Below are positions 13,541-23,535 of a DNA stretch of 64,000 bases, in pieces. The position numbers and the translations under genes were made by a program. Under the pieces are notes generated by a model that worked only from the letters and a program-made list of their open reading frames with translations, ran no database searches and was not told where the DNA came from. This stretch comes from Chroococcidiopsis sp. CCMEE 29 (GTDB lineage Bacteria > Cyanobacteriota > Cyanobacteriia > Cyanobacteriales > Chroococcidiopsidaceae), in contig NZ_CP083761.1 of NCBI RefSeq assembly GCF_023558375.1, positions 3,094,001 through 3,158,000 of the forward strand, given 5' to 3'. How positions within the stretch are numbered: the stretch's first letter is position 1; every line of letters begins with the position of its first letter.

Positions 13541-14737
13541 CTAAGCCGTCAAATTCTCATACACTGCCGCTGCCCCCATGCCGCCACCAACGCACGCCGT
13601 GACGAGGCCATAGCGAATACCGCGCCGTTTCATTTCATGGAGGAGGGTGGCTGTGAGCTTTGCACCCGTACAACCCAGGGGGTGACCGAGAGCGATCGCT
13701 CCGCCGTTGACATTCACAATTTCCTCATTCAGACCGAGTTTGTCAATCACAGCAAGGGTTTGAGCAGCGAAGGCTTCATTCAATTCAATCAGCCCAATGT
13801 CATCTAATGTCAGACCCACCTGCTTCAGAACCTTCGGCACCGCTGCAATCGGACCGATACCCATAATTTCTGGAGGAACACCTGCAACCGCAAACCCCAA
13901 CATGCGTCCGAGCGGTTGCACGCCAAGTTCGTTTACCAGGCGCTGGCTGATCACTACCGTCGCTGCTGCGCCATCCGAAGTTTGCGATGAGTTACCAGGC
14001 GTGATCGTTCCACCCAGGCGAAAAACAGGTTGCAACCGAGCTAAGGCTTCTAGGCTGGTATCGGGGCGGGGACCTTCATCCACCTGGAAGACCTTCTCTA
14101 CCAACTGCGGCTTGCCATCAATATAGAAGGTTTCGCGCACGGGGAGCGGGACAATTTCTTCCGCAAACCGACCTTGCTCAATCGCAGCTAAGGCTCGCTG
14201 GTGCGATCGCAAAGCAAAGGTATCCTGCTCCTCGCGGGAAATCTGGTACTGCTGCGCCACGTTTTCTCCCGTGATGCCCATCGTACAGTAGGCTTGCGGA
14301 GCATCCGTCATCATCTCTGGGTTAGGAGCTAAATAATGTCCTCCCATCGGAATCAAACTCATGGATTCAGCTCCACCCGCAACAATAGCTTCCGCCTGTC
14401 CTGTGATAATTGCCTGGGTTGCCATAGCAATGGTTTGTAGTCCTGAGGCACAGAAGCGGTTAACGGTAGAGCCTGCTACAGAATCAGGCAAACCCGCTCG
14501 CTGTGCAATCACCCGCCCCAAATTAAACCCTTGTTCTGCTTCCGGAAACGCACAGCCAAAAATGATGTCATCAATGCATTCAGGTGCAAGGTCTTTGATG
14601 CGCTCAATTGCCCCTTTCACCGCAACCGCTCCCATATCATCAGGACGAACGTTGCGTAATGTGCCGCGTGGGGCTTTCCCAACCGCAGTCCGAACGCTGC
14701 TGACAATGTAGGCTTCTTTCATCTCCATGTCTCTCAA
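13541..14737 (-). CDS. fadA: Acetyl-CoA acyltransferase (beta-oxidation thiolase)
   Basis: A 398-residue thiolase of standard length. The nucleophilic cysteine is in VNRFCASGLQT (about residue 92), the second site is GGAIALGHPLGCTGAK near residue 352, and the C-terminal cysteine is in VTACVGGGMGAA. It cleaves 3-ketoacyl-CoA with CoA to release acetyl-CoA. It is the last gene of a three-gene operon, 12 bp after the FadB/FadN-type gene, which points to degradation rather than PHB synthesis. Confidence 0.92.
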   Translation of the reverse strand: MRDMEMKEAYIVSSVRTAVGKAPRGTLRNVRPDDMGAVAVKGAIERIKDLAPECIDDIIFGCAFPEAEQGFNLGRVIAQRAGLPDSVAGSTVNRFCASGLQTIAMATQAIITGQAEAIVAGGAESMSLIPMGGHYLAPNPEMMTDAPQAYCTMGITGENVAQQYQISREEQDTFALRSHQRALAAIEQGRFAEEIVPLPVRETFYIDGKPQLVEKVFQVDEGPRPDTSLEALARLQPVFRLGGTITPGNSSQTSDGAAATVVISQRLVNELGVQPLGRMLGFAVAGVPPEIMGIGPIAAVPKVLKQVGLTLDDIGLIELNEAFAAQTLAVIDKLGLNEEIVNVNGGAIALGHPLGCTGAKLTATLLHEMKRRGIRYGLVTACVGGGMGAAAVYENLTA

Positions 14738-14749
14738 CCTCCCTATCCC

Positions 14750-17098
14750 CTAATTCCGTAGGGGTTTCTTATTCTTAAGCACGTAGGCAATTCGCTCCTG
14801 GGTTTTGGGCTGACTTAGTAGGGGTAAAAACGCCTCCCGTTCCAGTTGCAGCAAGTAATCTTCATCAACCAAGGCGGGTGCAGACAATTCCCCACCAGTC
14901 ATGACATAGGCTAAGCGGTTAGCAAGATAGCGATCGTATTCCGTGATGAAACCACCTTGGTGGAAAATGTAAGCGGCATGTTCTAGCATTGCCCTACCAG
15001 GACAACCCAGCACCATAATCGCGTTGCGCTCAGGTGGTGGTGCATAGCCTTCTCGTTCTAGACGTAGCACCTCTTCTTTCGCGACTGCCAAACGTCGGTC
15101 TCCATTCATGACAATCTTGGTTGTCGGGGGCAAGAATCCCAGCTGTTGGGCTTCGTGGGCACTATTAGACACTTTTGCCATGCCAATCGTTTCAAAAGCT
15201 TGCCGCAGGAATGGCTGGATATGATGGGGAGATTCCGTTGCTGCCCGGTCAGCTGCCCAAGTCACCGTCCGCATAAGACCGCCAGCCCCAGGAATCAGAC
15301 CCACACTCAGTTCCACTAGTCCGATATAGGTTTCTGCTGCTGCCACTACCTGTGGACACGCCATTACTAACTCGCAACCGCCACCCAGAGTCCGCCCCCC
15401 AATTGCTGCGACAATTGGCTGAGTGGAGTAATGAATCCGCTGCAACAAGGTTTGGAATTTGACAATTAAGTCGGCGATCGCTTGGAATCCGGACTGTGCC
15501 AGCATCGCCATTTCCGCTAGATTTGCTCCACCTGAGAAGTTGGGGCTACCGTTACCAATAACTAATCCCCGCAAATCGCCATTTTCGAGGAGATCGAGCA
15601 CCTGGGCTAAACCATCAACCACCTGTAGACTCAGGGTATTACCTTTAGAGCGGAACTCATACAAAACCACCCCATCCCCCAAGTCCAACAACGCTGCTTC
15701 AGGATTTTGCCAAAGTGTACGTTTCGGGTTTGCCTTCAATGCAGCCAGGTTAATTTCATCGGTCGGGAGTAAAGAGGACGCAGAGAAGAAAGCTGCTCCC
15801 CCTGCCTCCTCTGGCTCATAAAACCCACCCACACCTGTATACTGCATCCTCTCCACCCACTCCGGCACCGGAATTCCAGCGGCTTTCATGTCTGCCAACA
15901 CAGTTTCAAACCCGAGAGCATCCCAAATTTCAAATGGACCGAGTTCCCAACCGAAACCCCACCGCATCGCCCGGTCAATATCGGCAGGACTATCAGCAAT
16001 TTCGGGAATACGAAAGGCACTGTACCCCAGCATTTGCAGGGTGGACTGCCGGAAGAAAGCACCCGCACGACTCGGATCGCGATACAGCGCCCGCAAGCGA
16101 TCGCCCAAATCGGGAATCTTGTCAATCGCGGCGATATCCCCTAAATTCAAGGGTTTGGCTGGCTCATAGGTCAGAGTTTTCAGGTTCAGAGAAAGAATCT
16201 GGCGATCTTGTTTCTTGTAGAAGCCTTGCCCTGTTTTCGCTCCCAGCGTCCCCGTCTCCACGAGTTTACGCAGCAGTTCAGGAACGCGGAAGACTTCTCG
16301 GCTTTCATCGTGGGGAATGGCTGGATAGAGATTGTCCGCCACGTACATCAGCGTATCAAGTCCGACTAAATCTGCTGTTCGGAATGTTGCAGATTTGGGA
16401 CGCCCGGCAATTGTCCCTGTCAGTGTATCAATTTCCTCAATTGTATATGCCTGCTCAATCAACGCCCGCAAACCGAGCATCGTCACATAAACTCCGATCC
16501 GATTGGCAATAAAGTTGGGGGTATCCTTTGCAACCACCACTCCTTTACCCAGGTGTAACCGTCCGAACCACTTTACCCGCTCTAGGACTTGCGGATCGGT
16601 GTCGGTTGTGGGAATGACTTCTAGTAACTTCAGATAGCGCGGTGGATTGAAAAAGTGAGTGCCCAAAAATCGTTTCCGGAAAGAATCAGAACGTCCTTTA
16701 GCGATCGCGCGGATCGGCAAGCCACTGGTATTAGTGGATACGATTGTATCCTCGCCAATTACGCCTTCCAAGCGTTCCATCAACTGCTGCTTGATGCCCA
16801 GATTTTCCATCACTGCTTCGATTACCCAATCGACTTGGGCAACCAGATGAAAATGCTGATCGAAATTACCCAGGATGACGCGGCGAGCGGTCTTTTCCGT
16901 GAAGAAGATTGGTGGAGACAGCTTGAGAGCTTTTTTGAATGATGTTTCGACCAGTTCGTTTTTATTGCTGGTATTGGCAGGGAGGTCTAGCAAATAAACA
17001 GTCAGCCCTGCATTGGCAAGGTGAGCGGCGATCTGGCTTCCCATCACCCCTGCACCGAGAACGGCAGCTGTTCGAAAAGGCTTCAACATAGTTCTCAA
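14750..17098 (-). CDS. 3-hydroxyacyl-CoA dehydrogenase / enoyl-CoA hydratase, FadN-type fusion
   Basis: A 782-residue bifunctional protein. The N-terminal Rossmann NAD domain begins with AAVLGAGVMGSQIAAHLANAG (residues 12-32, listed in two parts by function: GxGxxG and helix). A second dehydrogenase domain includes DTPNFIANRIG near residue 195. The hydratase domain lies C-terminal, with NFSGGANLAEM near residue 510 and GGGCELVMACPQVVAAAE near 570. This dehydrogenase-then-hydratase order and length match Bacillus FadN, not E. coli FadB. It catalyses hydration of enoyl-CoA and oxidation of the hydroxyacyl-CoA. The neighbours encode thiolase and acyl-CoA ligase. Confidence 0.9.
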   Translation of the reverse strand: MRTMLKPFRTAAVLGAGVMGSQIAAHLANAGLTVYLLDLPANTSNKNELVETSFKKALKLSPPIFFTEKTARRVILGNFDQHFHLVAQVDWVIEAVMENLGIKQQLMERLEGVIGEDTIVSTNTSGLPIRAIAKGRSDSFRKRFLGTHFFNPPRYLKLLEVIPTTDTDPQVLERVKWFGRLHLGKGVVVAKDTPNFIANRIGVYVTMLGLRALIEQAYTIEEIDTLTGTIAGRPKSATFRTADLVGLDTLMYVADNLYPAIPHDESREVFRVPELLRKLVETGTLGAKTGQGFYKKQDRQILSLNLKTLTYEPAKPLNLGDIAAIDKIPDLGDRLRALYRDPSRAGAFFRQSTLQMLGYSAFRIPEIADSPADIDRAMRWGFGWELGPFEIWDALGFETVLADMKAAGIPVPEWVERMQYTGVGGFYEPEEAGGAAFFSASSLLPTDEINLAALKANPKRTLWQNPEAALLDLGDGVVLYEFRSKGNTLSLQVVDGLAQVLDLLENGDLRGLVIGNGSPNFSGGANLAEMAMLAQSGFQAIADLIVKFQTLLQRIHYSTQPIVAAIGGRTLGGGCELVMACPQVVAAAETYIGLVELSVGLIPGAGGLMRTVTWAADRAATESPHHIQPFLRQAFETIGMAKVSNSAHEAQQLGFLPPTTKIVMNGDRRLAVAKEEVLRLEREGYAPPPERNAIMVLGCPGRAMLEHAAYIFHQGGFITEYDRYLANRLAYVMTGGELSAPALVDEDYLLQLEREAFLPLLSQPKTQERIAYVLKNKKPLRN

Positions 17099-17110
17099 AC
17101 CTCCCTCTTG

Positions 17111-19324
17111 TTAAGCAGTTAATGATGAATTCAGGGATTGTGCATAGGCGGGACACGAAGCCCTGGAAGTGGTTGGACAGGAATACACTGAGTGTTCATC
17201 AATGTTTCCCATCTCCCTATCGCCTGGTCTTTGTGTCTTCACGTCATCAGCTTCCCCGTATAGGGCATTAATTTCCTTAGCAAACACTTCCACTACTTTG
17301 GCGCGTCTAACTTCTCCGGTGGGAGCCAGCATCCCGTTCTCGGCGGTGAGCGTAGCACTGACGAGCTGGAAGCGTTTGACAGTAGACCAATAAGGTAAAT
17401 GGCAATTGGCTTCATCCACCAAAGTTTGGTAAAGGGCGAGGATGCACGGATGCTTTAACAATTCCTCAGTTGGCACGAGTCCCATGGTTTGGGCTTGCCT
17501 GTGTAGGGTGTCCAAATGGGGGAAAATCAGCATGGCACAGAATTTGCGTCCGGCTCCCACTGCGATCGCCTTTGCCACTAGAGGAGATTGTTCTAACTTG
17601 CTTTCTAAAGGCTGCGGTGTCACATATTTGCCTGTAGAGAGTTTGAATTGGCTTTTCTTCAAACCCGTAATCTTGAGAAAACCGTCTGCGGTAAACTCCC
17701 CAATATCGCCTGTATGAAACCAGCCGTCAGGATCGATCGCTTGTTGGGTGGCATCGGGGTTTTTGTAGTAGCCTTGAGTGACATTTGGTCCTCTAACCAG
17801 GATTTCACCATCGTCAGCGATCGCTATTTCCACCCCAGCCAGCGGCACCCCAACCGTTCCAGCACGGTTGAATTGAGCTCGATTACAGGCGACGGCTGAA
17901 CCGGTTTCGGTCAAGCCATACCCTTGCAAAATTCTGATGCCCGCTGCAGCAAACAGGTTAACTATCTCTGCTTTCAAGGCTGCACCTCCACAGATCGGGT
18001 ATTTGAGCCGTCCCCCAAATACAGAGCGCCATTGACAGAACACCAGCCGATCTGCCAGCTTCAGCATCAGGGCATATCTCCCTTGCGGTAGCTGTCCCAG
18101 TTCGTACCGTTGGGCAAGGTTCAGTGCCCAATTAAAGACCCGTTGGGTGTCTTGTCGCTGGCGCAATTTAAATGAAGACACAAACAGGCGCAGATGTGGT
18201 AACTTCCACTGATTAAATTGAGATAGGGGAATACCTAGACGCTCTCTGCGCGTCACTATCTCTCCTTGTCTCTGCCTCTCCTGCGTCTTCGCGTCTCTGC
18301 GGATCATCTGCACCGCAAAAGCACGGAAGCGGGGAAGCAAATCGTACATGCTATGTCTCGTGGTTCCCTGCTTTGCCCGCTTGCTTCCTTCTTCTAAAAT
18401 CTTGCTGTAAGTCTTTTCCAGCAAGAGTGGCACCATAGCGAATAGAGTCGGTTGCACTTCTTTAAGATGTTTCATCACCCGGTTAGGGGTGGTAAAGTAA
18501 ATGCTATGCCCATAGTTGATATGACCGTACAGAAAAACACGGGCAAAAACATGCGTCAGCGGCAGAAATGAAAGGATAACCTCCTTGTCGCCTAATTCCA
18601 GATCGGGAATGCCAGTAAACATCGCCAGCGCGTCAGCTGAGAGATTTTCATGACTCAGCATCACGCCCTGAGGTTTTCCCGTAGCTCCTGGGATATAGAC
18701 AATTGTGGCTAAATCATGTGCTGCTAGTACCAACCGCAGTTGCTGTCGCTGAGTGTCTGAGATCTGAGTTTGTCCTCGCAGACGAATCTCTAAAAGCGAA
18801 AAGACTTGGATGTACTTTAACCTTTGAACTTGCCTTTGCTGCCAATCAGAAGGGATATCAATAACAATCGCGGCTTTCAGATTGGGTGTCTCCCCCAAGA
18901 AAGGAGCAACTTGATCGAGTAAGTCTTGGTTGGCAACAATCAGTACCTTTGCCTCACTGTGCTGCAGAATAAAAGCGATGTTTTCGAGCGTTTGGGTTAA
19001 ATCGATTGGCACATCAATCAGTTTTGCCAACAAACAGCCCATGTCTGCAATGCAGAAGTTAACATCGCTGTGCATCAACAGGGCAACGCGATCGCCCCTT
19101 TCCAGCCCCAAGTTCAACAAACCTAGCGCGAACTCTTCGGCAGCGCTACGAAAGGCTTGATTAGATAGGGGTTGCCAACCTTTATCTGTCCATTGGTTAA
19201 AAGCGTGGGGGTTGGGAGTGCGATCGCAGGCTTCATCTAATAACGAAGGCAATGTACGCCCCACCATCACTTTCCCAGAGTCGGGGGGGGCTCTGTAAAT
19301 CTTCTCAGACAACATCTTAGCCAA
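17111..19324 (-). CDS. Long-chain fatty acid-CoA ligase (AMP-binding)
   Basis: A 737-residue adenylate-forming enzyme that would activate fatty acids with ATP and CoA. The P-loop-like A3 motif reads YIPGATGKPQGVMLSHENL near residue 212 instead of the usual YTSGTTGxPKG. Other motifs are canonical: GYGLTETGSAVA near 463, and GWFHTGDIGEF then LKKSQFKLSTGKYVTPQPLE near 535-570. The protein is long because of an insertion around residues 330-380 and a C-terminal tail (DVKTQRPGDREMGN and onward) of no known function. It is the first gene of the beta-oxidation operon. Confidence 0.85.
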   Translation of the reverse strand: MAKMLSEKIYRAPPDSGKVMVGRTLPSLLDEACDRTPNPHAFNQWTDKGWQPLSNQAFRSAAEEFALGLLNLGLERGDRVALLMHSDVNFCIADMGCLLAKLIDVPIDLTQTLENIAFILQHSEAKVLIVANQDLLDQVAPFLGETPNLKAAIVIDIPSDWQQRQVQRLKYIQVFSLLEIRLRGQTQISDTQRQQLRLVLAAHDLATIVYIPGATGKPQGVMLSHENLSADALAMFTGIPDLELGDKEVILSFLPLTHVFARVFLYGHINYGHSIYFTTPNRVMKHLKEVQPTLFAMVPLLLEKTYSKILEEGSKRAKQGTTRHSMYDLLPRFRAFAVQMIRRDAKTQERQRQGEIVTRRERLGIPLSQFNQWKLPHLRLFVSSFKLRQRQDTQRVFNWALNLAQRYELGQLPQGRYALMLKLADRLVFCQWRSVFGGRLKYPICGGAALKAEIVNLFAAAGIRILQGYGLTETGSAVACNRAQFNRAGTVGVPLAGVEIAIADDGEILVRGPNVTQGYYKNPDATQQAIDPDGWFHTGDIGEFTADGFLKITGLKKSQFKLSTGKYVTPQPLESKLEQSPLVAKAIAVGAGRKFCAMLIFPHLDTLHRQAQTMGLVPTEELLKHPCILALYQTLVDEANCHLPYWSTVKRFQLVSATLTAENGMLAPTGEVRRAKVVEVFAKEINALYGEADDVKTQRPGDREMGNIDEHSVYSCPTTSRASCPAYAQSLNSSLTA

Positions 19325-20209
19325 GAAGAGCTTAAAACTCTTCCGTTCAATAAAATTTATCTTTGATTTTTCACACCAAGCCAGATCGACGAGCAGAGTT
19401 CAGGCTTTGAACTTATTTAACACTTCTCACTGCCACTTTATATCTCTTTAGCAACTAGGGAGTATCAGTTTATCCAACTTAGATGAATAAACTGTTCTTC
19501 AACAATGCTATGGAAAAACAAATTTATGACTCAGTGGTTATTTCAAAGGCTAATTTCTGACACCTGAGTCTAATAGTTTCCTTGCCTCTCCTTATTAACT
19601 GGGTGACAATTAACGGTGGAAATGTATGATTTTGAGACTGTGGCACTTTCATGCCTAACCGTCTTTAAATCAACATGTTTTGCACAGACTCTTTTTGTAA
19701 CCTTAGTGTAGCTTACTGATCGCCAAAGATGCCATCTAATTCAATATATCTTTGGTAATAAATGCAATTAAATATTAAGAGTTTTTAGGCAACATATCAA
19801 CGCAATTGGGCAGAACAAATCTTAACAATATGAACGACAAAGAACTACGGTGTTACACATTTAACTTGCATATTCCCAAGCGAAAATATCTGTTATTCTC
19901 CCCCTGCTCCCCCTGCTCAAGGAAGCTCCCCCTGCTTGGCTTAACAGGCAAACTAGATATTTAACGGCTTAGCCGCCTTCGCTGCCGCCGTAGTCTTCTG
20001 CCTCAAACAAGCTGATGAAGTTGGAGAATTTTGGAATTTGTAGTACCTGCTGATATTCTGCGTCCATCCAAGGGAATAATTTAGAATAGTATAGTAGGTT
20101 ACTTTTAATCAAAGAACGAAAAAACACTTTTAGCAGTGACCCATTCGACTTTGATTTGCAACCTAGATTCAACTCGGCTCTAACGCGCTCAGTTAGAGAG
20201 TACAGCAAG
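19325..20209. other. Intergenic region between the ligase gene and the PhyH gene, 885 bp
   Basis: AT-rich, with no convincing gene. Three direct copies of CTCCCCCTGCT lie at 19898-19908, 19907-19917 and 19926-19936. A minus-strand ORF (19969-20208) ends in FEAEDYGGSEGG but has no clear start signals. Confidence 0.4.
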
Positions 20210-21013
20210 ATGATTCAAAGCATAGATAAGGCTTATAGGGCTACTGACCTGGACCGATTCGCGCAGGAATTGAATCGAGATGGAATTTGTGTGATTCGCG
20301 GACTTTTCGACCCAGAGTTGATTAAGGAGTGGGCAGAAGCTTTTAATGCCTTATTCCAAGAACGCCAAAACCGACCCGGTGGTCTGGCTCCCCGCGAACA
20401 AGCTCGCTACTATCTGACGTTGCCCTGGATTGCTCCCTTTTCTAATCCAGAAGTCTTTGCTAACCCAGCGATCCTCGGTGTCCTCGATCGCGTGTTTTCT
20501 CAGGAATATGTGATGGTTCAGTTAGGAGTTGACATTCCAGTGCAGGGGTCGGATTATCAAGAAATTCATCGAGACTTTCGTCCTCTATTCTCGGATCAGG
20601 TAGTAACGCCACTTTACTCTCTGGCGGTCAACTTCCCGCTAGTTGAAGTAACAGCGGAGAACGGACCTTTCCAGATGGCTCGTGGTACGCACGTCTTACC
20701 CCGTGACGAAGGGCTGGTCAAGCTCACCAGCGGTGAGATTCCAATGGAGTCTTTCTATATGATGCCGGGAGACGTGGCAATTCGGACACCCTTGGCGTTG
20801 CACCGAGGTTCACCCAACCGCACGAGCCAGCCAAGACCAATGGTTGTGATGGGCTACGCGATGCATTGGCTGCACACACCAAAAGTAGACTTGACTGTCC
20901 AGCGGGACGATTACGAGAGCCTACCGGAGCAAACGAAGCAATTATTGCGGTGTCAGGTGGTGGAGCAGTTGCCGGAGAATAAGGTCGAAACCTACATAAA
21001 TTTCAAGTATTAG
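20210..21013 (+). CDS. Phytanoyl-CoA dioxygenase (PhyH) family oxygenase
   Basis: A 267-residue Fe(II)/2-oxoglutarate-dependent oxygenase of the PhyH family. The metal triad is H and D in EIHRDFRPL and the distal H in ALHRGSPNRTSQPRP, whose arginine would bind 2-oxoglutarate. The substrate is not predictable; PhyH-like enzymes hydroxylate lipids and many secondary metabolites. I chose the ATG at 20210. A TTG at 20156 would add 18 weakly supported residues. It appears monocistronic and stands alone between the beta-oxidation operon and a degraded region. Confidence 0.82.
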   Translation: MIQSIDKAYRATDLDRFAQELNRDGICVIRGLFDPELIKEWAEAFNALFQERQNRPGGLAPREQARYYLTLPWIAPFSNPEVFANPAILGVLDRVFSQEYVMVQLGVDIPVQGSDYQEIHRDFRPLFSDQVVTPLYSLAVNFPLVEVTAENGPFQMARGTHVLPRDEGLVKLTSGEIPMESFYMMPGDVAIRTPLALHRGSPNRTSQPRPMVVMGYAMHWLHTPKVDLTVQRDDYESLPEQTKQLLRCQVVEQLPENKVETYINFKY

Positions 21014-21608: not shown

Positions 21609-22369
21609 CTATTGAGCAATCGCACCTCCATCAATGGGAATTGCAGCACCCGTAATAAAGGAACTGGCTTCGGAAGCCAGAAATAAAACGACTTGTGCAA
21701 CTTCATCTGGTGAGGCGAGACGACCAAGAGGATGTTTGGTTGCAAGCTGATCAATTTGTTCTTGAGTTGGAGCAAGTACAGTCTGAATGGGTGGTGTTTC
21801 AACAACTCCAGGCATGATGGCGTTGATGCGAATACTTTGCTGTGCATATTCTAAAGCGGTTGATCGCGTCATCCCAATCACCCCGTGTTTTGTCGTGGAG
21901 TACATGGCTCCGTATGGCTGTCCCTTATTACCGACAATGGAAGCACATTGTTAATGATGATGCCGCCGCCTTGCTTTAGCATTTGCAAAATTTCATGTTT
22001 GAGGCAGAAGAACACGCTAGTCAAATTTGTATTGATCACCCTAAACCAATCCTGCTCGGTCATCTCTGTAATCGCTCCCAGCCTTCCAAAAATTCCAGAG
22101 TTGTTAAACGCAACATTAGTTCGCCCAAAATGGTTGATGGTCTGTTGAACTAAATTCTCAATTTGTTCTTCTCTAATGACATCAGTTTGAACAAAAACTG
22201 CTTCACCACCTGCTTCTTCAATCTGTTTCACAGTTTCTTCACTTTCATTGATTCGTCGGCTGGCAACCACAAGTTTTGCACCTTCTTGACCAAATGCAAT
22301 TGCCGTTGCTTTACTAATTCCTGAACTTGCTCCAGTGACAAGTACAACTTTATCTGCAAAGATTGGCAT
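21609..22369 (-). pseudogene. Short-chain dehydrogenase/reductase with a frameshift
   Basis: The first frame (22369 downward) has the nucleotide-binding motif VTGASSGISKATA and NNSGIFGRLG. The second frame (from 21905) has the catalytic YSTTKHG motif, the PGVVETPP loop and the C-terminal ITGAAIPIDGGA. The frames meet near 21945, where INNVLPLSV should read INNASIVGNKGQPYGAMYS; two extra bases (TG) would explain the shift. Rejoined, the protein is about 250 residues, standard for SDR enzymes. The lesion could be real or a sequencing error. Confidence 0.8.
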
Positions 22370-22380
22370 AACAAATCTTC

Positions 22381-23535
22381 CTCAGGACTTACGCAAGTGT
22401 CATGGCAATTGCTGGATTCTTAAGCTGCTGAATTAAGTATAGTGAGAGCAATCCATGCTTGAGAGCATAGATAGTCTGGTCTGTAGAGTAAGCTAGATGT
22501 TTCAGTCTCAACCAGACCAGTAGGGCACAACCAATATGATTTCGTTGAATGCGAGCTTGACGACATTAGCAGGCTTCTATACCGGTTAATTGCTTAATCT
22601 CACGGTGAAACTCCGATGGTCTTCCAACGAACATCACACACCTGTTGTACGGCATCCGTAGAATCTTGATTTTTCTCGTTTGTAGCGATGAATTCCGTCT
22701 TGTCGGTAGAGACAACGACCCGGAATAGTTTCACCTTTTTAGCACCTGGAAAACCTTTGATTTTAATGAGTTTGCCTTGTAGAGCTTCAGTTTGATTCCA
22801 GTCTAGCTGTTGAATAGCTTTGTATTTTTCCACTCCCCCTGTATCATCAACGAGTCGATTTATCTTCAAAGGACAATAATATATCTTGCCCAAATCATCA
22901 ATCAACAGCATGATTTTTTGGGTAGCATACCAGCTATCCATCAACACTCTCGTGAATGGTAAGTGCTGATTTATCACCAGGTTGTTAAGCATCTGTGAGC
23001 CGTGTTCCAGCTTGGTCTTACCATCACCATCCGGGTCATATACCCGATAGTCAATTACCCAAAACTGCCCAGTTTCTGGATTGACATATACACAGCTAAC
23101 TAAACCAATACCACGAATAACTCGATGTTCGTTTCCACTATAGTGTCGCTTTGTCAGTTCAATTTTTTTAGCATATTTTTTATCTAAAACTGTGTCATCA
23201 AAAATCAAATAAGCATTTTCATGCCTTTGAATAACATGCTGCACATTATCCCAAAGTAAACAAGGAGTAATTTTCTCGTTCCTCAAGTAGCGGTTGATAG
23301 TATCATGGCTGAAATTCCCAAGCTGGGCAGCTAAGTTAGTTAACGTGTAATTGATTTGGCTACTCAGTAAATATTGACAGTAGTCTAATTTAGTAAATCC
23401 CATTGTTTGGGAGCGCTATTTCCATCTATTTTTAACAACTGCCGCACAGTCCTGTTTCCACGCCCTCTAAGTATTACTACTTACTCAGCCTCCAGGTCTT
23501 GGGGCTGAAAACTTTACCCCTGCGTAAGTCCTGAG
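22381..23535 (-). mobile_element. IS701-like insertion sequence, decayed
   Basis: Perfect 15-bp terminal inverted repeats CTCAGGACTTACGCA (22381-22395) and TGCGTAAGTCCTGAG (23521-23535) enclose one transposase gene. No target duplication is visible. The right end cuts an MscS-like remnant and the left end abuts the SDR start region, so flanking DNA was probably deleted. Confidence 0.8.
22389..23403 (-). pseudogene. IS701-like DDE transposase, frameshifted
   Basis: The N-terminus is intact (MGFTKLDYCQYLLSSQINYT), with FDDTVLDKKYAKK as the first catalytic aspartate region and LMDSWYAT as the second. At about 22600 the frame shifts: DVRWK should continue into EFHREIKQLTGIEAC, which is found in another frame. 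There it meets a TAA and then runs through RIQRNHIGCALLVWLRLKHL to AIAMTLA, ending inside the terminal repeat. Two lesions make it inactive. Confidence 0.85.

Follow-up and report, generated by a model that had tools for sequence, protein, structure and literature searches.

A putative fatty-acid beta-oxidation operon with a degenerate ligase in Chroococcidiopsis sp. CCMEE 29 and a minority of other cyanobacteria

Introduction

Do some cyanobacteria break down fatty acids by beta-oxidation? The question is raised by three adjacent genes of Chroococcidiopsis sp. CCMEE 29, found in a stretch of 64,000 nucleotides (contig NZ_CP083761.1, positions 3,094,001 to 3,158,000; hereafter the window). In order of transcription on the minus strand, they encode a FadD-like protein of the ANL fold, the bifunctional dehydrogenase-hydratase FadN and the thiolase FadA. 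Passages in three papers state that beta-oxidation is absent in cyanobacteria (PMC7181335, PMC7379126, PMC6123915), and passages in two others state this for Synechocystis alone (PMC7133116, PMC11973298), the former also noting a single report that fatty acid catabolism has been retained. In Chlorogloeopsis fritschii PCC 9212, four adjacent beta-oxidation genes (UYEDRAFT_05553-05556) are described as ∼10-fold up in far-red light and 15- to 70-fold up in rfpBC mutants, from which its discoverers deduce that membrane lipids are being used (PMC6424891). No other cyanobacterial report of such genes was found in the literature surveyed, which covers subscription journals only a little, so that others may exist. 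The four genes of C. fritschii carry successive numbers, and we infer that they correspond to an operon of the type described here; electron-transfer flavoprotein (ETF) and the ligase motifs are not discussed in the relevant passages of that paper.

We consider it probable, judging from comparative sequence analysis, that the window genes form the core of a working beta-oxidation cycle, acquired once as an operon, kept by a minority of cyanobacteria and used to burn or recycle the acyl chains of their own membranes. This reading rests on the presence of fadN, fadA and fadE in one genome, a conserved gene order, four trees that each show a single cyanobacterial clade, and invariant catalytic residues. 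It draws further on FadE being the sole acyl-coenzyme A (acyl-CoA) dehydrogenase in most genomes checked, on its hydrophobic N-terminus and its match to VLCAD and ACAD9, on the failure to detect ETF, on the lipase genes beside many operons, on the rarity of FadL and on the far-red induction in C. fritschii (passages of PMC6424891). In the proposed scheme, the phylum would have acquired the operon once, often with a lipase attached. When photosynthesis is short of energy, the lipase would free acyl chains from membrane lipids, and these would reach CoA by a step involving the FadD-like protein, a probable pseudo-synthetase. FadE would then form the enoyl-CoA, FadN would hydrate and oxidize it, and FadA would cleave off acetyl-CoA. 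Anchored by its hydrophobic N-terminus, FadE would pass its electrons to the membrane plastoquinone pool, no ETF having been found in the genome.

Results and Discussion

Gene content and catalytic residues

FadA consists of the Pfam domains Thiolase_N and Thiolase_C and scores above the cut-off of NCBIfam TIGR01930. FadN contains 3HCDH_N, 3HCDH and ECH_1, in that order over its full length; its full-length match to NCBIfam Staph_FadB (642 bits) lies under the cut-off of 999 of that exception-type model. Residues that we take to be catalytic are invariant in all 24 cyanobacterial rows of both alignments. These are the two cysteines and one histidine of FadA (Cys96, His352 and Cys382), the dehydrogenase residues Ser125, His148, Glu160 and Asn199 of FadN and its two hydratase glutamates, Glu576 and Glu596 (all counted from the upstream TTG). 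The FadD-like product matches Pfam AMP-binding (216 bits) and AMP-binding_C_3, both above cut-off; none of the 25 NCBIfam models listed reaches its cut-off, the best being FadD11 with 241 of 950 bits. The original prediction of a ligase, FadN and thiolase operon with 12-bp gaps thus holds for the three genes and their families; the gaps are an effect of the upstream TTG starts and become 21 nt when the ATG codons behind GGAGG are taken for fadN (17089) and fadA (14728). Features are collected in Table 1.

Table 1. Positions of the operon genes, ligase motif codons, acyl-CoA dehydrogenase genes and neighbouring genes. Positions are those of the window unless a contig (C1, C2) of the genome (G000) is named; motif codon positions were derived from residue numbers.
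Feature	Position	Strand	Remarks
fadA, 3-ketoacyl-CoA thiolase	13541..14728	minus	ATG preceded by GGAGG; open reading frame reaches upstream TTG at 14737
fadN, 3-hydroxyacyl-CoA dehydrogenase then enoyl-CoA hydratase	14750..17089	minus	open reading frame reaches upstream TTG at 17098
fadD-like, ANL-fold protein, probably pseudo-synthetase	17111..19315	minus	open reading frame reaches upstream TTG at 19324
A10 position	17312..17314	minus	Glu671 replaces lysine
A8 position	17660..17665	minus	Gly-Leu replaces Asp-Arg
Codons of residues 268-273, including His268 and His273	18506..18523	minus	invariant within cyanobacterial clade
Degenerate P-loop (A3) codons	18665..18697	minus	YIPGATGKPQG instead of YTSGTTGxPKG; residues 210-220
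PhyH-like dioxygenase gene	20156-21013	plus	divergent from fadD
Short-chain dehydrogenase gene, apparently split over two frames	21609-22369, 22600-23403	minus	beside DDE_5 transposase gene
fadE, E. coli type	C1:428988-431435		same contig as operon
Acyl-CoA dehydrogenase gene L001	C1:2276198-2279629		adjoins FkbH-like genes
Acyl-CoA dehydrogenase gene L002	C2:572033-575464		second contig; adjoins FkbH-like genes

The first oxidation step

The window holds no acyl-CoA dehydrogenase gene, as the original prediction states, and the three genomic places where such genes were found (genome 6.39 Mb in two contigs, completeness 99.99%) all lie outside it. One of them bears out the suggestion that the pathway is completed elsewhere, since it encodes an 816-residue FadE of the E. 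coli type, 2.7 Mb from the operon. This protein is 47% identical to FadE of E. coli K-12 over 788 columns and exceeds the cut-offs of PRK09463 (1047 bits, cut-off 600) and PRK13026 (940 bits, cut-off 608), although not that of the stricter FadE_coli exception model (895 bits, cut-off 1300). Its ACDH_C domain spans the whole length. Glu496 aligns with a glutamate that we take to be catalytic in VLCAD and ACAD9, where it is part of the EG motif, and is kept in all 23 rows. FadE of the window genome begins with hydrophobic segments, as do the E. coli protein and each of the 22 tested FadE proteins of cyanobacterial relatives. In a model of the Fischerella protein (mean predicted local distance difference test score, pLDDT, 85.7), residues 97–677 match VLCAD and ACAD9 best, with Z-scores of 31–32. 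FadE is the sole acyl-CoA dehydrogenase found in three of the four operon-bearing cyanobacteria checked (Xenococcus PCC 7305, Leptothoe and Pseudanabaena lw0831); the fourth, Fischerella, has one further weak match, below cut-off. Families and invariant catalytic residues of FadN, FadA and FadE together favour the predicted assignment to beta-oxidation.

The other two dehydrogenases (L001 and L002) were set aside as beta-oxidation enzymes because FkbH-like genes, labelled by sight, stand alongside both. We take this combination as the pattern of an extender-unit cluster, and the two loci are probably two such clusters.

Distribution of the operon

In a sample of 386 genomes of the phylum, non-photosynthetic lineages included, some FadE match occurs in 62 and some FadN match in 45. 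Close full-length matches to both (FadE 63–78% identity, FadN 58–77%) are confined to the same six genomes (G000, the window genome, and G334, G060, G185, G193 and G211), the FadN match of G185 being in two pieces of one frame. Outside the window's class, three genomes (G001, G007 and G016) have long FadE matches at 50–51%, and G047 and G053 have full-length FadN matches at 46% and 41%. G029 has a fragment of FadE. Neither protein is matched in the two other sampled genomes of the window's family (G005 and G308). The genes are hence not shared by all close relatives; their presence in all of these, with anabolic roles, is what the original prediction had named as speaking against it. Its other counter-argument, the lack of any acyl-CoA dehydrogenase, does not apply either. 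A wider scan, with one genome per bacterial or archaeal species, gave, among its best 80 places, at least 20 that are cyanobacterial by title (L073–L091 and L102). Named carriers among these 20 include Fischerella thermalis PCC 7521, Xenococcus sp. PCC 7305, Oculatella, Leptothoe, Adonisia, Petrachloros and Pseudanabaena sp. lw0831. Loci L067 and L102 are identical in sequence and enter the counts as one.

Across both surveys, the order fadD-fadN-fadA recurs at 24 other distinct cyanobacterial loci, so the arrangement is not due to chance. At one of them (L076), in a thin assembly, fadD and fadN are each broken into two frames. Wherever the contig runs past fadA, which excludes L076 and L090, fadE follows on the same strand (22 of 22). 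It does so too on plasmid pMB02 of Acaryochloris sp. 'Moss Beach' (L183, 6898-16349), which carries an operon copy with a lipase; its ligase is annotated as two pieces, and its fadN is unannotated and was matched in two pieces. With the set together in all 23 others, the window genome is the exception, its fadE having moved from the operon.

History of the operon

In IQ-TREE phylogenies, the cyanobacterial rows form one clade with 100/100 support for FadN (24 of 57 rows), FadE (24 of 39), FadD (24 of 46) and FadA (25 of 52, by group test). The FadN tree holds all cyanobacterial loci except L076, 17 of the loci L092–L109 and 16 of 45 others (L071, L072 and L110–L152). The FadE tree omits L076 and L090, where contigs end, and L093, L095 and L098–L101, where a usable FadE is absent. 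For FadD, L076, L099, L112 and L117 were too short; its six non-cyanobacterial orthologues are every ligase above 500 residues at L092–L109 except that of L109, which is distant and lies downstream of fadE. In the FadA tree, the row L118 sits on a very long branch. The window row joins G334 and Fischerella in the FadN, FadE and FadD trees; for FadA it is one of three cyanobacterial rows that make up a starred set, and by path the same two are its nearest rows.

The closest outside rows in the three drawn trees belong, depending on the protein, to Rhodothermota, Balneolota, Calditrichota, Gemmatimonadota, Chloroflexota or Myxococcota. The nearest relatives of the cyanobacterial proteins are encoded in operons of the first four of these phyla, such as that of Roseithermus sacchariphilus (L096). 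They resemble the cyanobacterial operons in that fadN and fadA are followed by a gene for a long FadE at 11 of 17 loci (L092–L109, L102 apart; several of the rest end early) and preceded by an orthologous fadD at six, but differ in that the ligase keeps all ATP motifs (6 of 6) and ETF is present in 9 of the 12 genomes searched. In the Bacillus-type set of Bacillota, for which we take fadNAE to be the operon name, fadN again precedes fadA, and an acyl-CoA dehydrogenase gene comes next. Its FadN, however, is 42–45% identical, and its own dehydrogenase of ∼600 residues is not of the E. coli type (22–28% identity to the window FadE). These relationships agree with the possible transfer from another phylum that had been suggested, without proving its direction, and would fit one old acquisition, many losses and some plasmid movement. 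Base composition is a weak argument for recent transfer: the operon genes have 50–54% G+C and their left and right flanks 45% and 43%, but the PhyH-like neighbour also reaches 51%, and the trees point to an old shared acquisition.

The degenerate ligase

The motifs (P-loop/A3, A4, A5, A7, A8 and A10) are named as is usual for the ANL family and are presumed to have their usual roles. The full P-loop is found in none of the 24 cyanobacterial operon rows, compared with all six non-cyanobacterial operon orthologues (L092, L096, L098, L101, L103 and L106, one of them from Chloroflexota), all seven distant FadD rows (Ignavibacteria, Acidobacteria and one unclassified bacterium) and all five cyanobacterial paralogues that, by similarity, we take to be Aas-like. 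The A8 arginine shows the same distribution (0 of 24 versus 6/6, 7/7 and 5/5). The A10 lysine remains in three cyanobacterial rows (L080, L083 and L084), as against 6/6, 7/7 and 4/5. Fourteen positions invariant in the 13 non-cyanobacterial rows are kept by less than half of the cyanobacterial rows, and 12 of these fall in A3, A8 and A10. Positions 554, 668 and 672, which are among the 12, however differ in every Aas-like row too. Four residues (His268, His273, Phe436 and Gly554) occur in every cyanobacterial row, whereas each of the six orthologues has something else at these positions; one distant row (L142) has a histidine at 273 as well. The two new histidines lie shortly after the A4 motif, and both are present, by sight, in the Acaryochloris ligase pieces, whose motifs are likewise degenerate.

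The protein nevertheless seems conserved. The 18 canonical rows share 54 invariant positions, and at 31 of them no more than one of the 24 cyanobacterial rows deviates; Asp94, Tyr210, His258, Gly468-Tyr469-Gly470, Asp540 and Glu574 are examples kept in all. A structural model (mean pLDDT 82.3) retains the ANL fold and matches acyl- and aryl-CoA ligases with Z-scores up to 43.6. The domain arrangement of this AlphaFold model fits 4g37 (511 residues) and 5bsr (496), which we take to be thioester-forming structures, over more residues than 4g36 (417) and 5bsw (406); we give this little weight. Five pairs of relatives, of which two are Xenococcaceae and the others come from L089–L091, give ratios of nonsynonymous to synonymous substitution rates (dN/dS) of 0.13–0.22 for fadD and 0.03–0.08 for fadN, values that are rough since dS for fadD exceeds 1 in four of the five pairs. 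In these relatives, fadD would appear to be under looser but purifying selection. Its rate of change was dropped as evidence, FadD being the least conserved of the four proteins in the Rhodothermota and Chloroflexota set too.

Since the protein keeps its fold and many canonical positions while the ATP motifs are degenerate, it seems to be conserved for something independent of the usual ATP site, and it is probably not an ordinary ATP-dependent ligase. The opposite view, of an ordinary ATP-dependent acyl-CoA ligase working in spite of its unusual ATP site, could draw on the retained fold, on Asp540 of A7 in all rows and the A5 glutamate in 18 of 24, on the three A10 lysines and on the 31 preserved canonical positions. 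We regard it as rather unlikely, because P-loop and A8 arginine are lost throughout while all six orthologues retain them, because the losses concentrate in three ATP motifs and because two new histidines have become invariant. Identity with the cyanobacterial acyl-acyl carrier protein (acyl-ACP) synthetase was rejected; the Aas-like paralogues branch as a clade of their own, with the motifs intact save for the A10 lysine of L178. Such a paralogue is matched, in a frame of 628–685 residues, in all six cyanobacteria tested. Synechocystis Slr1609 is described as making acyl-ACP (in passages of PMC11973298). Acyl-CoA might be supplied either by the Aas-like paralogues or by an ATP-free transfer.

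The electron acceptor

The original prediction had directed attention to fadE and ETF genes elsewhere in the genome; unlike fadE, ETF was not found in the operon-bearing cyanobacteria. None of 26 such genomes (25 distinct) is matched by PF01012, and likewise none by PF00766, whereas of 14 control genomes the same searches detect ETF in 10. Across the phylum, 181 of the 386 sampled genomes have ETF, those listed within the window's class being only G177 and G332, of one genus. An ETF hidden under another profile was considered, and both Pfam models tried were negative in the operon cyanobacteria. With no ETF detected, FadE must hand its electrons elsewhere, and the hydrophobic N-terminus suggests a membrane acceptor; we propose that this acceptor would be plastoquinone. 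The enzyme of E. coli offers a parallel, sharing ACDH_C, the hydrophobic N-terminus and 47% identity; passages of PMC11495604 describe its ETF partner as unidentified and direct quinone reduction as possible. Differences are that E. coli has ETF-family genes, whereas the cyanobacterial FadE belongs to a FadN operon lineage in genomes where ETF was not found.

Oxygen is another conceivable acceptor. Beta-oxidation would then be real, but FadE would act like an acyl-CoA oxidase and produce hydrogen peroxide in these oxygen-rich cells, in keeping with the failure to detect ETF and with a link between E. coli FadE and cellular hydrogen peroxide formation (in passages of PMC11495604). We think this doubtful, as hydrophobic N-termini in the window genome and all 22 relatives suggest an acceptor in the membrane. 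A bolder version of the plastoquinone proposal, which we offer tentatively and hold to be on balance unlikely, would join both anomalies of the system: a neofunctionalized synthetase, stripped of its adenylation residues and equipped with the two new histidines, would move acyl groups to CoA without ATP, from a lipid-lipase intermediate or from acyl-ACP, and membrane-bound FadE would feed plastoquinone without ETF.

Substrate and physiology

At 16 of 25 loci (the 24 and the plasmid), a gene for a lipase-like alpha/beta hydrolase is found no more than about 1 kb from the operon. That of L088 is on the opposite strand, and in L079 and L102 the lipase-like domain is fused to FadD. Two of the nine loci without lipase (L078 and L087) offer less than 1 kb of upstream sequence. 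At three loci (L089, 3972-6383; L090, 3953-6376; L091, 3912-6368), a lipase-domain gene with a product of ∼800 residues stands upstream of fadD; that of L089 combines DUF1400 and Hydrolase_4. Upstream of the fused lipase-ligase gene of Pseudanabaena there is also an Lrp/AsnC-type regulator gene (L067, 13835-14383), a candidate regulator. Of eight operon genomes searched for a FadL-type porin, one has it, a rarity that speaks for a substrate from inside the cell. One of six sampled operon genomes has isocitrate lyase (G334:C1:30584-31810; L158, L160). The two counts lead us to favour internal lipid turnover over growth on external fatty acids. F. thermalis PCC 7521, Xenococcus PCC 7305 and C. 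fritschii are strains with far-red photoacclimation, to which the operon may be linked.

Several observations weigh against the proposed cycle. Neither the window nor the fadE locus yielded a lipase homologue, the remaining genome not having been searched, and fadE, being split off, may be regulated apart. Isocitrate lyase was found in only one of the six sampled operon genomes, and not in that of the window, which makes growth on fatty acids alone unlikely. The ligase is degenerate, so that it may not be what forms acyl-CoA. Three non-cyanobacterial operon genomes (G408, G410 and G417) also lack a match to PF01012 or PF00766, and one of them, R. sacchariphilus (G408, L096), has five acyl-CoA dehydrogenase matches, four of them beyond FadE, so that the absence of ETF need not concern FadE alone. 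VLCAD itself uses ETF, and a VLCAD-like fold is thus no proof of quinone reduction. Finally, a review, in the passages concerned, regards it as a crucial question how the electrons reach the respiratory chain, and carries the speculation that the C-terminal domain of FadE does this in place of ETF (PMC9329746).

The displaced fadE and the degenerate ligase might also be read as signs of a pathway decaying in this strain. The distance of 2.7 Mb and the Acaryochloris plasmid copy, with ligase and fadN each in two pieces, are in line with decay, which we judge improbable: all four genes are open in the window genome, and the dN/dS of fadD points to constraint in the pairs of relatives, of which L080/L084, however, retains the A10 lysine and four have dS above 1. 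Least probable of all is that the genes serve another acyl-CoA route, such as side-chain trimming in secondary metabolism or supply of polyhydroxyalkanoate precursors; the two dehydrogenases beside FkbH-like genes and the missing isocitrate lyase would suit it, but those dehydrogenases are separate enzymes, the operon set makes up a full cycle, and elsewhere fadE, of the E. coli type, and often a lipase gene neighbour the operon.

Neighbouring genes

On the opposite strand beyond fadA lie an NdhD-like gene, recognized by sight, and a gene matching ChpXY in Pfam; these neighbours fit a cyanobacterial setting. The PhyH-like and split short-chain dehydrogenase genes on the other side are given in Table 1.

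Implications

If internal lipid turnover by this cycle is the correct reading, the statement that cyanobacteria lack beta-oxidation would appear to fail for a minority of them, the culture-collection strains Xenococcus sp. PCC 7305 and F. thermalis PCC 7521 among them. The FadD-like protein would pose a biochemical puzzle, as a member of a family of activating enzymes that stands beside a pathway without the residues normally needed to activate its substrate. Since genomes with one acyl-CoA dehydrogenase and no detected ETF were found, the operon may serve as a natural system for the question, raised for E. coli FadE in passages of PMC11495604 and PMC9329746, of whether ETF or direct quinone reduction takes up the electrons. 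Should plastoquinone be the acceptor, lipid breakdown in these organisms would be wired into the photosynthetic electron chain.

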